From NCBI GenBank assembly GCA_005116745.1, contig SWDS01000006.1, positions 268,935 through 332,934 on the forward strand: DNA of 64,000 nt. The letters run 5' to 3'. A program made the translations under genes and the position numbers. The stretch comes from Nitrospira sp. Its GTDB lineage: Bacteria; Nitrospirota; Nitrospiria; Nitrospirales; Nitrospiraceae. Under the pieces are notes generated by a model. That model was not told the origin of the DNA and did not search any database. It saw only the letters and a program-made list of their open reading frames with translations. Below, in pieces: positions 45,523 to 53,101 of the stretch (position 1 is its first letter; each line of letters opens with the position of its first letter).

Positions 45523-45597
45523 TGGAGCGGGAAAAGGGATTTGAACCCTCGACCCTCGCCTTGGCAAGGCGATGCTCTACCACTGAGCTATTCCCGC
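45523..45597 (-). tRNA. tRNA-Gly (anticodon GCC)
   Basis: The minus strand folds as a tRNA: acceptor GCGGGAA/TTCCCGC, D arm AGCTCAGTGGTAGAGCA, anticodon loop TTGCCAA with anticodon GCC, T arm GGGTTCAAATCCC, discriminator T. The terminal CCA is encoded at 45523-45525. The 75-base length is normal. Confidence 0.97.
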
Positions 45598-45746: not shown

Positions 45747-45954
45747 ACAATATGATTTAAAAAGAAATTAAAATCATAAACAGCGCAAGACGCAGCCTCT
45801 AATCACATAAATATTAAATGAAAACTGCTACTCATACTACTCATAAGCTATAAATGATCGAACCACGATATGTGTAAGTGAAAAACTTGAAACGAAATTG
45901 TTTTACATATACTTATGTGAAGTGGAATGAAGCAGTTTCTAAGCAGACAGCGTA

Positions 45955-45970
45955 TGGCTCGAATATTGCT
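45955..45970 (+). promoter_or_regulatory. sigma-54 (-24/-12) promoter of nxrAB
   Basis: TGGCTCGAATATTGCT agrees with the RpoN consensus TGGCACG-N4-TTGCT at all but one base, with the required GG-N10-GC spacing (GG at 45956-45957, GC at 45968-45969). Transcription would start near 45981, about 195 bases before nxrA. Confidence 0.7.
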
Positions 45971-46175
45971 GAATTTTACGGTTGCAAGGAATGGTATGCG
46001 GTGATATATGCTTCACTGCTTTCTTTCAACATGCTAGTGCTGAGTATATGAGTTTCATGCGTACAACGCATAACAGAAAACAAATGAATGCTGGTTCACA
46101 TACATCCAGCTGGTATGAAAACAAACAAGGAAACTGGGCTCGTTCAAGTTCATAAACGTTGAGGAGGTATCCACA

Positions 46176-49100
46176 ATGTTCTTGTCACGTCGACAATTTT
46201 TGAAAGTCTCTGCTGGCACTGTTGCTGCCGCAGCCGTGGCGGACAAAGTCCTGGCATTGACGGCTCTCCAGCCGGTGATCGAAGTTGGCAACCCGCTGGG
46301 AGACTATCCGGATCGATCCTGGGAACGGGTCTATCATGATCAGTATCGCTACGATTCATCCTTCACATGGGTCTGCTCCCCCAATGATACGCATGCCTGT
46401 CGTGTGCGCGCCTTCGTTCGCAACGGAGTGGTCATGCGTGTGGAGCAGAATTATGACCACCAAACCTATGAAGACTTATACGGCAATCGTGGAACGTTTG
46501 CCCACAACCCACGGATGTGCCTAAAAGGGTTTACTTTCCATCGACGTGTGTATGGCCCGTATCGTTTGAAAGGGCCTTTGATGCGGAAGGGTTGGAAGCA
46601 GTGGATGGATGACGGTTCTCCCGAGCTGACTCCAGAAACCAAGCGCAAGTACAAGTTCGACAGTCGCTTCCTCGACGATATGCTTCGTGTCTCCTGGGAT
46701 ACGGCGTTTACCTATGCGGCGAAGGCGATGATCATCATTGCCACTCGGTACAGCGGTGAAGCTGGAGCGCGACGTCTTCGCGAGCAGGGGTATGCCCCGG
46801 AAATGATCGAGATGATGAAGGGCGCTGGTACCAGATGCTTTAAGCATCGTGCCGGAATGCCGGTCCTCGGTATTATCGGGAAGATGGGCAATACTCGGAT
46901 GAACGGTGGAATCAATGCCTTGTTGGATACCTGGATCCGTAAGGTGAGTCCTGAGCAGGCACAGGGCGGTCGCTATTGGTCGAATTACACCTGGCACGGA
47001 GATCAAAATCCTTCCCAGCCGTTCTGGTCCGGCGTGCAGGGTTCGGACATTGACCTTGCAGATATGCGCTTCTCGAAGCTGAATACAAGTTGGGGGAAGA
47101 ACTTCGTCGAGAACAAAATGCCGGAAGCGCACTGGAAGTTAGAGTGTATTGAGCGCGGCGCCCGTGTGGTTGTCATCACGCCAGAATACAATCCTACTGC
47201 CTACCGTGCCGATTATTGGATGCCTCTACGCCCACAGTCGGACGGTGCAATTTTCTTGGGCGCCATGAAAATCATCGTCGACGAAAACATGCATGACGTC
47301 GATTTCTTGAAGCAATTTACCGATGCTCCAATATTGGTGCGTACGGATACGTTGCAATACCTGGATCCGCGCGATGTTGTGGCGGATTACAAGTTCCCCG
47401 ATTTTTCCAAGAGCTACTCTGGCCGCATCCAATCCTTGAAACCTGAGCAGGTTGAACGGCTCGGTGGAATGATGGTGTGGGACCATACGAAGAAGCAAGC
47501 CGTGCCGCTCCATCGGGAGCAAGTGGGATGGCACTATACGAACAGTGGTATCGATGCCGCGCTTACCGGCACCTATCGAGTCAAGCTGCTCAATGGCCGA
47601 GAAATTGATGCTATGCCGGTATGGCAGATGTACATGGTGCATTTCCAGGACTATGATCTGGACACAGTCCATCAGATCTGCCGCACACCGAAGGATCTCC
47701 TTGTGCGGTGGGCTCGTGACTCGGGCACCATTAAACCCGCTGCAATCCACAACGGTGAAGGTGTCTGTCACTATTTCCATATGACGGCGAACGGGCGCGC
47801 GGCTGCCATGGTGCTCATCATCACCGGCAATGTCGGCAAGTTTGGCACCGGGCAGCATACCTGGGCTGGCAACTACAAAGCGGGAGCGTGGACGGCAACG
47901 CCATGGTCGGGTGCCGGATTAGCCGTACACACGGGTGAGGATCCCTTCAATATTACGTTGGATCCGAATGCCCACGGAAAGGAAATTAAGACTAAATCAT
48001 ACTATTACGGCGAAGAAGTTGGTTATTGGAACCATGGGGACACGGCGTTGATCGTCAATACGCCAAAGTATGGGCGAAAGGTGTTTACCGGTAAGACCCA
48101 TATGCCGACACCGAGCAAATTCCGTTGGGTAGTCAATGTCAACGTGCTGAACAATGCCAAGCACCATTACGACATGGTGCGTAACGTTGACCCGAATATC
48201 GAATGTCTGATTACGCAAGACATCGAAATGACGTCTGATGTCAATCACAACGATATCGCCTTTGCCTGTAACTCCTGGATGGAGTTCACCTATCCGGAAA
48301 TGACGATTACGGTGTCCAATCCATGGGTTCAGATTTGGAAGGGCGGCATCAGGCCGCTGTACGATACCCGTAACGACTTGGATACCTTTGCGGGTGTTGC
48401 CGCCAAGCTATCGGACATGACTGGCGACAAGCGCATGAAGGACTATTTCGCCATGGTCTACGCGAACCGAGTCGACGTCTATGCCCAGCGCATGCTGGAT
48501 GCATCGAGCACATTCTACGGGTATTCAGCCGACGTCATGCTGAAGTCGGAAAAAGGTTGGATGGTCATGGTCCGCACGTACCCACGGCATCCTTTCTGGG
48601 AAGAAACGAATGAGTCGAAACCGATGTGGACCCGTAGCGGACGATACGAAAACTACCGTGTCGAACCCGAGGCCATTGAGTACGGAGAAAACTTTATCTC
48701 CCATCGAGAAGGTCCGGAGGCCACACCGTATCTCCCGAATGCTATCTTCACGACGAACCCATATGTTCGGCCTGACGACTATGGCATTCCAATTACGGCA
48801 CAACACCACGATGACAAAACGGTCCGGAATATCAAGTTGTCGTGGCATGAAATCATGCGTCATTCGAATCCTCTGTGGGAAAAAGGGTATCAGTTCTACT
48901 GCGTGACTCCAAAAACCCGCCACCGAGTCCACAGTCAATGGTCCGTGAACGACTGGGTACAGATCTACGAGTCCAACTTCGGTGATCCTTATCGTATGGA
49001 TAAGCGGACGCCAGGGGTCGGCGAACACCAGATTCATATCAACCCTCAAGCCGCCAAAGATCGTGGGATCAACGATGGTGACTATGTGTATGTCGATGGG

Positions 49101-49613
49101 AACCCGGTAGACCGCCCCTACCGCGGATGGAAGCCGAGCGATCCTTACTACAAGGTGGCACGGCTGATGATTCGCGCCAAATATAACCCGGCCTATCCGT
49201 ACCACGTGACCATGGCCAAGCATGCGCCATATGTTTCCACCGCGAAGTCCGTCAAGGGCCATGAGACTAGGCCGGATGGACGGGCGATCGCGATTGATAC
49301 CGGATATCAATCTAATTTCCGGTACGGTGCCCAACAGTCGTTTACCAGGAATTGGTTGATGCCCATGCACCAGACCGATTCGTTGCCGGGCAAACACGCG
49401 ATTGCCTGGAAATTCAAATGGGGGTATCAAGTCGATCACCATGCGATCAATACGGTGCCCAAGGAATGTCTCATCCGCATCACTAAGGCCGAAGACGGCG
49501 GAATCGGCGCCCGTGGTCCGTGGGAACCAGTTCGGACCGGGTTCACGCCAGGTCAAGAGAACGAGTTCATGATCAAATGGCTCAAGGGCGAACATATTAA
49601 GATTAAGGTGTAA
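46176..49613 (+). CDS. nxrA: nitrite oxidoreductase alpha subunit NxrA
   Basis: NxrA is the molybdopterin catalytic subunit that oxidises nitrite to nitrate. The 1145-residue protein opens with a twin-arginine signal (SRRQFLKVSAGTVAAAAVA), so the enzyme is exported folded to the periplasm, as in Nitrospira. The N-terminal iron-sulfur site is Cys67-x3-Asp71-x3-Cys75 with Cys115, with Asp in place of one ligand seen in related enzymes. The rest matches the DMSO-reductase type II fold, and the C-terminal dinucleotide-binding domain ends near the stop. GAGGAGGT lies eight bases ahead of the ATG. nxrB follows, 88 bases downstream. No chaperone or gamma subunit gene is next to it. Confidence 0.96.
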   Translation: MFLSRRQFLKVSAGTVAAAAVADKVLALTALQPVIEVGNPLGDYPDRSWERVYHDQYRYDSSFTWVCSPNDTHACRVRAFVRNGVVMRVEQNYDHQTYEDLYGNRGTFAHNPRMCLKGFTFHRRVYGPYRLKGPLMRKGWKQWMDDGSPELTPETKRKYKFDSRFLDDMLRVSWDTAFTYAAKAMIIIATRYSGEAGARRLREQGYAPEMIEMMKGAGTRCFKHRAGMPVLGIIGKMGNTRMNGGINALLDTWIRKVSPEQAQGGRYWSNYTWHGDQNPSQPFWSGVQGSDIDLADMRFSKLNTSWGKNFVENKMPEAHWKLECIERGARVVVITPEYNPTAYRADYWMPLRPQSDGAIFLGAMKIIVDENMHDVDFLKQFTDAPILVRTDTLQYLDPRDVVADYKFPDFSKSYSGRIQSLKPEQVERLGGMMVWDHTKKQAVPLHREQVGWHYTNSGIDAALTGTYRVKLLNGREIDAMPVWQMYMVHFQDYDLDTVHQICRTPKDLLVRWARDSGTIKPAAIHNGEGVCHYFHMTANGRAAAMVLIITGNVGKFGTGQHTWAGNYKAGAWTATPWSGAGLAVHTGEDPFNITLDPNAHGKEIKTKSYYYGEEVGYWNHGDTALIVNTPKYGRKVFTGKTHMPTPSKFRWVVNVNVLNNAKHHYDMVRNVDPNIECLITQDIEMTSDVNHNDIAFACNSWMEFTYPEMTITVSNPWVQIWKGGIRPLYDTRNDLDTFAGVAAKLSDMTGDKRMKDYFAMVYANRVDVYAQRMLDASSTFYGYSADVMLKSEKGWMVMVRTYPRHPFWEETNESKPMWTRSGRYENYRVEPEAIEYGENFISHREGPEATPYLPNAIFTTNPYVRPDDYGIPITAQHHDDKTVRNIKLSWHEIMRHSNPLWEKGYQFYCVTPKTRHRVHSQWSVNDWVQIYESNFGDPYRMDKRTPGVGEHQIHINPQAAKDRGINDGDYVYVDGNPVDRPYRGWKPSDPYYKVARLMIRAKYNPAYPYHVTMAKHAPYVSTAKSVKGHETRPDGRAIAIDTGYQSNFRYGAQQSFTRNWLMPMHQTDSLPGKHAIAWKFKWGYQVDHHAINTVPKECLIRITKAEDGGIGARGPWEPVRTGFTPGQENEFMIKWLKGEHIKIKV

Positions 49614-49701
49614 ACCAGGACGCACGATAGAGCGTGTGAGGCTCAACCGTGAATGTGCAGGGCCTCATGCGGAGAACGTCGAACATAGAACGGAGGACGC
49701 A

Positions 49702-51730: not shown

Positions 51731-53101
51731 AGCACATGATCTGTCCGGGTTTTTCTCTCGATCATTTCAGCCCGAGGCCAAAATTTCTTTCCTCACAGGT
51801 GGCCTAGGAGCCACGATCGGTCCGTCGCCCGATCTCTGGATCGGCCCGCGACGGCGGGGCGGGGCGCCTTCGGACTCGATCACCCGCCCATCCGGCTGAT
51901 ACCGCACCAAGCATCGCGGGCCATGAAACACCGCCAAGGTGCTGTCGGGATACTCGTGGACCCGTATGGTGACCTTCACGTAATGGAAGCGGTGGCGATC
52001 TGGCGGGATCTGCAGATGCCGGCCCTGATACCGCACCGTATTGTCCTTGGCGACGACGCGGTTCTCCTGCACGCAGAGGATCTCGGCGAGGGACGTTCCG
52101 ACCCACGGGATGAAGGCAGTGCCGGGTTCCGCCGCCGCTACCGCAAAGCGTCGGTTGTAGGCCGGAAGCAATTGCTCGGCGAGATACCGGTTGGCCGCTG
52201 CCATCGTGGTGATCTCGGCCAGGGCCAGCTCTTTGGACAACCGATCTTGGAGGGTGCGGAAGACGCGCTCCGATCGGCCGCGGGCTTCCGGCGAGTACGC
52301 GGGAATGCGCGTGATGCCCAGTTGCTGTAAGGCCCGATGCACCTGCGTCAGCCGGGTCTTGTCCACCTTGCCTCCGGCCTCCTCCGTCACCCAATAATGC
52401 GAGCCGCGATCGGTATAGAGGGAACTGAAGAGGCCCTGTGTCTCAATGACCTCTCGCAGCCCCTGGAAGCTGCTCATGGTCCCTTCCTCCTCCACGAAGA
52501 AGGCCGAATAGAGGTCACTCGTGGCATCATCCATCGTCACAATGAGATCCCACTGACAGCCGGGCACCCATTCATGGGTCGAGCCGTCTTGGTGCAGCAT
52601 CATGCCCGGCAACGGTTTGCGGGGACGCTTCTTCCGATGCGCCCCGCGTCGAGGCGCGCGGACCACATGTCCAGCGATCTGCAGCCGGTTCTTGGTCCAC
52701 GTGTAGGACCGCTGCCCCCCATGCTCCGCCTGCCAGCGCTCGTAGAAGTGTTTCACCCTCCAGCCTGTGTACTGGCTCTCATACAGCGTCACCATCTGGA
52801 GGGCCTCATCGACGGGGACCGCCCGGGCCGACGCTCGGCCCAGCCGACGATCCTCCAGCCCCTCAATGCCCTCCGCTTCATAGCGGGTGCTCCACCGCCG
52901 AAACGTGCGTTCCGTCACGCCCAGCATCTCCGCTGCCTCCGCCATCGTCAGATCTCGCCGCTGTCGTCGCGCATACAACTCCTCAAATCGCATCTGTCGC
53001 ACCTCCTGTAGGACGGTTGCCCGTGTCATGGTGGCCCTCCTTGAGGGCGCACCCTAAACCGGACACTTCACGTGCTACAAAACCCGGACAGATGATGTGC
53101 T
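51731..53101 (-). mobile_element. insertion sequence, ISNCY-type
   Basis: The 1371-base element is bounded by inverted repeats 51731-51753 and 53079-53101, which share the outer core CTGTCCGGGTTTT with one mismatch near the outer end. A related second repeat (AGCACGTGAAGTGTCCGG) lies inside the right end, and a similar copy lies just outside the left repeat. The only gene is the transposase. I saw no target duplication. Confidence 0.82.
51767..53029 (-). CDS. ISNCY-family DDE transposase
   Basis: The 420-residue protein has an N-terminal helix-turn-helix (LTMAEAAEMLGVTERTFRRW) and an rve-type integrase core. The DDE residues fit as Asp in MMLHQDGSTHEW, Asp in LYTDRGSHYW and Glu in EARGRSERVFRTLQDRL. 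A basic tail (RRRGPIQRSG) follows. AAGGAGG lies five bases ahead of the ATG. The protein length and the complete motifs suggest an active or recently active element. Confidence 0.9.
   Translation of the reverse strand: MTRATVLQEVRQMRFEELYARRQRRDLTMAEAAEMLGVTERTFRRWSTRYEAEGIEGLEDRRLGRASARAVPVDEALQMVTLYESQYTGWRVKHFYERWQAEHGGQRSYTWTKNRLQIAGHVVRAPRRGAHRKKRPRKPLPGMMLHQDGSTHEWVPGCQWDLIVTMDDATSDLYSAFFVEEEGTMSSFQGLREVIETQGLFSSLYTDRGSHYWVTEEAGGKVDKTRLTQVHRALQQLGITRIPAYSPEARGRSERVFRTLQDRLSKELALAEITTMAAANRYLAEQLLPAYNRRFAVAAAEPGTAFIPWVGTSLAEILCVQENRVVAKDNTVRYQGRHLQIPPDRHRFHYVKVTIRVHEYPDSTLAVFHGPRCLVRYQPDGRVIESEGAPPRRRGPIQRSGDGPIVAPRPPVRKEILASG

Follow-up and report, generated by a model that had tools for sequence, protein, structure and literature searches.

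Sigma-54-dependent regulators adjoining nxr genes have been noted and proposed to control nxr paralogs (PMC6606698, PMC7522533). In N. moscoviensis, nxrAB paralogs, which are the same operon as the one considered here, have the adjacent regulators NITMOv2_4531 (NifA-like) and NITMOv2_4539, and the authors inferred sigma-54 control from these neighbouring genes; near the nxrA_1 copy, they found no regulator (PMC6606698). The classical NtrC- and NifA-type sigma-54 promoters provide a second comparison, with an enhancer, a bend site and a -24/-12 element as their parts. Their textbook enhancer sites are TGCACC-N5-GGTGCA for NtrC and TGT-N10-ACA for NifA.

The locus analyzed here lies in a stretch of 64,000 nucleotides from a Nitrospira sp. 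contig, which we refer to as a whole as the window, and contains nxrAB preceded by a long leader with the following features:

45826..45843, + strand: predicted enhancer TGCTACTCATACTACTCA, consensus TGNTAC-N5-CTACTCA, centred at about -146 from the predicted start
45903..45915, + strand: A/T-rich IHF-like position TTACATATACTTA, weak in the window and clearer in relatives as TATCAATAGCTTA
45955..45970, + strand: predicted sigma-54 -24/-12 promoter TGGCTCGAATATTGCT, conserved in the genus and beyond
45981, + strand: predicted sigma-54 transcription start, placed 12 bases 3' of the C of the -12 element
45982..46010, + strand: sigma-70-like extended -10 promoter TTGCAA-N17-TATATG, with TG at 46002-46003, overlapping the sigma-54 start region
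45998..46019, + strand: terminator-like hairpin followed by a T-rich tract, an alternative reading of the sigma-70-like region
46162..46167, + strand: AGGAGG ribosome binding site of nxrA, conserved in the alignment
46176..49613, + strand: nxrA, nitrite oxidoreductase alpha subunit, 1145 aa
49702..50991, + strand: nxrB, beta subunit, with a probable ATG start at MPEVYNW

The assembly holds nxrAB in single copy. It also encodes an AmoA-family gene, by which we identify the organism as a comammox Nitrospira (complete ammonia oxidizer). Nitrite oxidoreductase is thus one of two energy-yielding oxidations, and its description in the original prediction as the main energy-gaining enzyme was overstated. 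The mechanically called nxrB open reading frame begins at 49636, 22 codons 5' of the conserved ATG, and the true start is probably 49702. On the strand opposite to nxrAB, a tRNA-Gly (GCC) gene (45523-45597, minus strand) separates the upstream operon from the nxrA leader. About 0.8 kb 3' of nxrB, also on the opposite strand, is a transposase-like ORF (51767-53029, minus strand) with HTH_23 and an IS481-type leucine zipper match.

The original prediction had placed a sigma-54 motif with exact GG-N10-GC spacing and one mismatch at 45955-45970, and we re-found its sequence, position and spacing: TGGCTCGAATATTGCT matches TGGCACG-N4-TTGCW at 11 of 12 positions, the sole mismatch being T instead of A at the fifth base. 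The stated distance of about 195 bases upstream of nxrA fits the predicted start at 45981, but not the motif itself, which lies 205-220 bases before the ATG at 46176. Taken alone, a single 11/12 match is no proof of a promoter and is not significant, since the 64 kb window contains two matches with one mismatch against 0.67 expected from shuffled sequence, and two were reached in 12 of 100 shuffles. Scanning the organism's own genome with the -24/-12 pattern gave 41 matches, compared with 28 in a backward control, and a genome scan by this pattern alone is uninformative.

We searched for nxrA in 79 genomes of the genus and obtained 93 usable upstream regions. About 50 of the 93 carry the same GG-N10-GC element as the window (class I; consensus TGGYTYGAATATTGCG), at distances to the ATG that vary from 114 to 288 bases. 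Among 29 diverged class I representatives, mean pairwise identity was 79% over the 16 motif columns and 68% over the enhancer element, compared with 28-34% in neighbouring columns that belong to neither element. A score of at least 10/12 was reached by 23 of the 93 upstream regions, where 1.4 are expected, and outside the genus by 16 of 27, where 0.45 are expected; these 16 comprise nine regions with 11/12 (0.03 expected) and seven more with 10/12 (0.42 expected). Many of the motifs outside the genus read TGGCCCGAAAATTGCT, and Candidatus N. defluvii nxrA has CGGCACGTGAATTGTA at -200. The invariance of GG and TTGC among class I loci is built in by the anchor search, and anchor-free consensus scans agree with it. 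Common descent inflates these conservation counts, but the divergence of the flanks shows constraint on the sigma-54 element itself.

Two features of the motif do not follow from sigma-54 recognition. Class I loci conserve even their AATAT spacer, a constraint that the sigma-54 consensus does not impose, and the last base of the -12 element is G in most relatives (TTGCG) rather than the usual W. These features could be taken to mean that the 16-base motif and the element upstream of it are operators of a regulator unrelated to sigma-54, with the likeness to a -24/-12 promoter accidental. We consider this very improbable: GG and TTGC at N10 are precisely the bases that do not vary, and outside the genus the spacer is altered while GG-N10-GC is retained. 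Moreover, a GG-N10-G[C/T] element persists in other nxrA classes whose sequences differ, next to bEBP (enhancer-binding protein) genes, which lie directly 5' of such nxrA copies in N. moscoviensis (NZ_CP011801.1) and one further genome. This arrangement ties the GG-N10-G[C/T] element to bEBPs.

When class I loci were aligned by their -24/-12 motif, the enhancer-like element came to light; nearly all of them carry it, mostly 121-127 bases 5' of the -24 element. Of 50 loci, 35 match all nine scored bases, where none is expected. In the organism's own genome, TGNTAC-N5-CTACTCA has a single exact match, at 45826-45843, and in the 79 genus genomes 30 of 33 exact matches, among the matches listed, precede nxrA. 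The range given for bEBP sites is 100-150 bp upstream (PMC7057263), and the element appears to be a dedicated, essentially nxrA-only candidate enhancer at the textbook distance. Between enhancer and promoter, 16 of 50 class I loci match WATCAANNNNTTR at 8 or more of 9 positions, compared with 5.2 expected, with the matches clustered at -49 to -53 from the T of -24; the match in the window is weak. IHF-type bend sites are common at sigma-54 promoters without being obligatory. The locus resembles classical NtrC- and NifA-type promoters in the kinds of element, their order and their spacing, with the bend site here a possible one. It differs from them in its enhancer consensus, in having about one target per genome, and in the overlapping sigma-70-like promoter found at many loci.

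The genome encodes one RpoN, with the RpoN box ARRTVAKYRA, and about 19 bEBPs (19 strong PF00158 matches). None of the PF00158 matches falls inside the window, the one closest to nxrA on this contig being about 38 kb away; likewise, no bEBP gene adjoins the class I nxrA copies in the other genomes examined. The locus differs from the regulator-linked paralogs of N. moscoviensis, both in the absence of a bEBP beside nxrAB and in promoter class and enhancer. Together, the conservation of the motif, the nxrA-specific enhancer-like element, and the presence of RpoN and bEBPs in the genome strongly support a functional sigma-54 promoter for nxrAB.

We compared gene content to narrow down the activator. 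Genome G029 (2.0 Mb), which has the class I promoter, encodes only four bEBPs, orthologs of the regulators L101, L107, L108 and L115, and genome G028 keeps the class I promoter without L101 and L115. This elimination, which gaps in the genomes could mislead, leaves two regulators encoded elsewhere in the genome:

C10:197.7-200.2 kb: L108, the regulator of a kinase/response-regulator pair whose kinase is a membrane histidine kinase
C10:242-246 kb: L107, NtrX-like, the regulator of an NtrYX-like pair whose kinase is NtrY-like

L108 is present in 49 of 49 and L107 in 48 of 49 high-quality genomes of the genus. Elimination falls short of proof, and we regard these two-component regulators as the best candidates for the class I activator. 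L115, a PAS-bEBP, had seemed attractive because the HTH of its G029 ortholog differs, as does the enhancer half-site of G029. We set aside both L115 and L101, since G028 lacks them and yet keeps the element. Separately, we observed a conserved cluster in the organism's own genome (L263 5988-11748, on C6) that encodes a multi-PAS kinase, a receiver protein, a PAS-bEBP and a response regulator whose GAFTGA motif reads GAFTDA. The PAS-bEBP of this cluster has CxxC motifs and is present in most of the genus, and was not found in G028.

Downstream of the -24/-12 motif, the sigma-70-like element occupies +2 to +30 relative to the predicted sigma-54 start, and a single base separates its TG from the -10. 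In 13 of 50 class I loci, TTGMRA-N14-TGNTATATG is matched at all 14 fixed bases and at a fixed offset, where none is expected. Identity is 0.90 in the -10, 0.77 in the -35 and 0.44 in the spacer, and about 16-20 loci including the window conserve the pattern. We read 45982-46010 as a sigma-70-like promoter, and since it is conserved and overlaps the start region, sigma-54 control of nxrAB is probably not exclusive. The original prediction, that nxrAB would be controlled by an enhancer-binding protein and ATP hydrolysis, is therefore borne out as to the sigma-54 promoter but goes too far if control is taken to be exclusive.

One could go further and suppose that the sigma-70-like element is the main nxrAB promoter, with the sigma-54 site kept mainly for a special condition or occluding the start. 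The perfect matches at a fixed offset are consistent with this, as is the weak expression of the class I copy of N. moscoviensis under steady nitrite oxidation (PMC6606698). It is nevertheless the less likely reading: more than half of the class I loci lack the element, whereas the sigma-54 motif defines every one of them and nearly all have the enhancer, and in the window the -35 and -10 each match the E. coli consensus at only 4 of 6 positions. A weaker rival takes 45982-46019 as an attenuator hairpin within a sigma-54 leader and not as a promoter. The window has both the hairpin and the T tract, and terminator-like structures occur in 24 of 48 leaders compared with 10.7 expected, a roughly twofold enrichment. 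The nearest relatives, however, preserve the -35 and -10 hexamers and their 17-base spacing better than the stem, and termination at +40 would be unusually early, making attenuation unlikely. We also considered a nas-type (ANTAR) antitermination leader and dropped it: the hairpin has no more than some 17 bases before it, and the stem is poorly conserved.

Searching for the motif at other nxrA copies, a check suggested with the original prediction, gave a divided result: it is present at the roughly 50 class I copies, and further copies have two other GG-N10-G[C/T] classes, but at 22 second-copy loci sigma-54 matches do not exceed chance. Where a genome has two nxrA copies, one class I copy is paired with one lacking the sigma-54 motif in at least 17 cases. 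The second copies belong to the same family (protein about 88% identical) and also have a conserved long leader. Their upstream regions (L053-L070, L076, L081, L086, L089, L090, L096, L098) differ from class I: many share GGTAGT-type repeats (CGGTAGTT, TCGTAGTTT, CCGGTAGTCTTT) followed by GCTAAACT. The repeats are probably sites of another regulator, and their presence in place of the sigma-54 match points to different control.

N. moscoviensis combines several of these classes. Its nxrA_1 shares the class I promoter of the window, and nxrA_2 to nxrA_5 have other -24/-12 types; a strict GG-N10-GC scan missed nxrA_2, nxrA_4 and nxrA_5, which were found when GT was allowed at -12. At nxrA_5, a TGGCACAGGGCTTGTA promoter is accompanied by a TGTCAG-N6-CTGACA palindrome. 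Palindromes like this one precede the GG-N10-GT promoters of some nxrA copies, namely nxrA_5 and its relatives (upstream regions L028, L049 and L094), and they are likely enhancers for a different bEBP. During steady nitrite oxidation, nxrA_5 is by far the most highly expressed copy and nxrA_1 is expressed about 27-fold less (PMC6606698). Because nxrA_1 is weakly expressed, a class I promoter alone does not imply high expression.

We infer the following mechanism from the elements and their conservation. RpoN-RNA polymerase would sit on the -24/-12 element at 45955-45970 as a closed complex for transcription of nxrAB. A hexameric enhancer-binding protein, encoded in trans and best sought in the L108 or L107 pair, would bind at 45826-45843, about 146 bp 5' of the start, and use ATP to open the complex, perhaps assisted by bending of the A/T-rich stretch between enhancer and promoter. 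The sigma-70-like promoter over the same start region would probably give a basal level, here and in related genomes, and the two polymerases would compete for the overlapping start region. We consider this account very probable. More speculatively, and less likely than not, nitrite oxidation in Nitrospira may be switched by a two-component sigma-54 activator that occurs throughout the genus, is not linked to nxr and acts through an enhancer with one target, L108 being the best candidate, with two-copy genomes splitting nxrAB into a sigma-54-controlled and a sigma-54-independent enzyme.

In the literature searched, the PNAS genome papers for N. defluvii and N. moscoviensis aside, we found no account of these promoter elements, of the enhancer or of the split into classes. 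As far as that literature shows, the new part is the anatomy of promoter and enhancer, sigma-54 control of nxr having been argued earlier only from neighbouring genes. For comammox and other nxr loci with no nearby regulator, the analysis supplies a concrete promoter, two named candidates for the regulator and an enhancer sequence that could serve as bait. Differences in behaviour among nxr paralogs gain a possible explanation from sequence, namely the division into sigma-54 classes I, II and III and sigma-54-free copies, and this explanation is relevant to the response of nitrifiers to nitrite supply. If the sigma-70-like promoter is real, nxrAB would not have to fall silent when the activator is absent. 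Overall, these cells appear to turn on nitrite oxidoreductase through an ATP-driven regulator.
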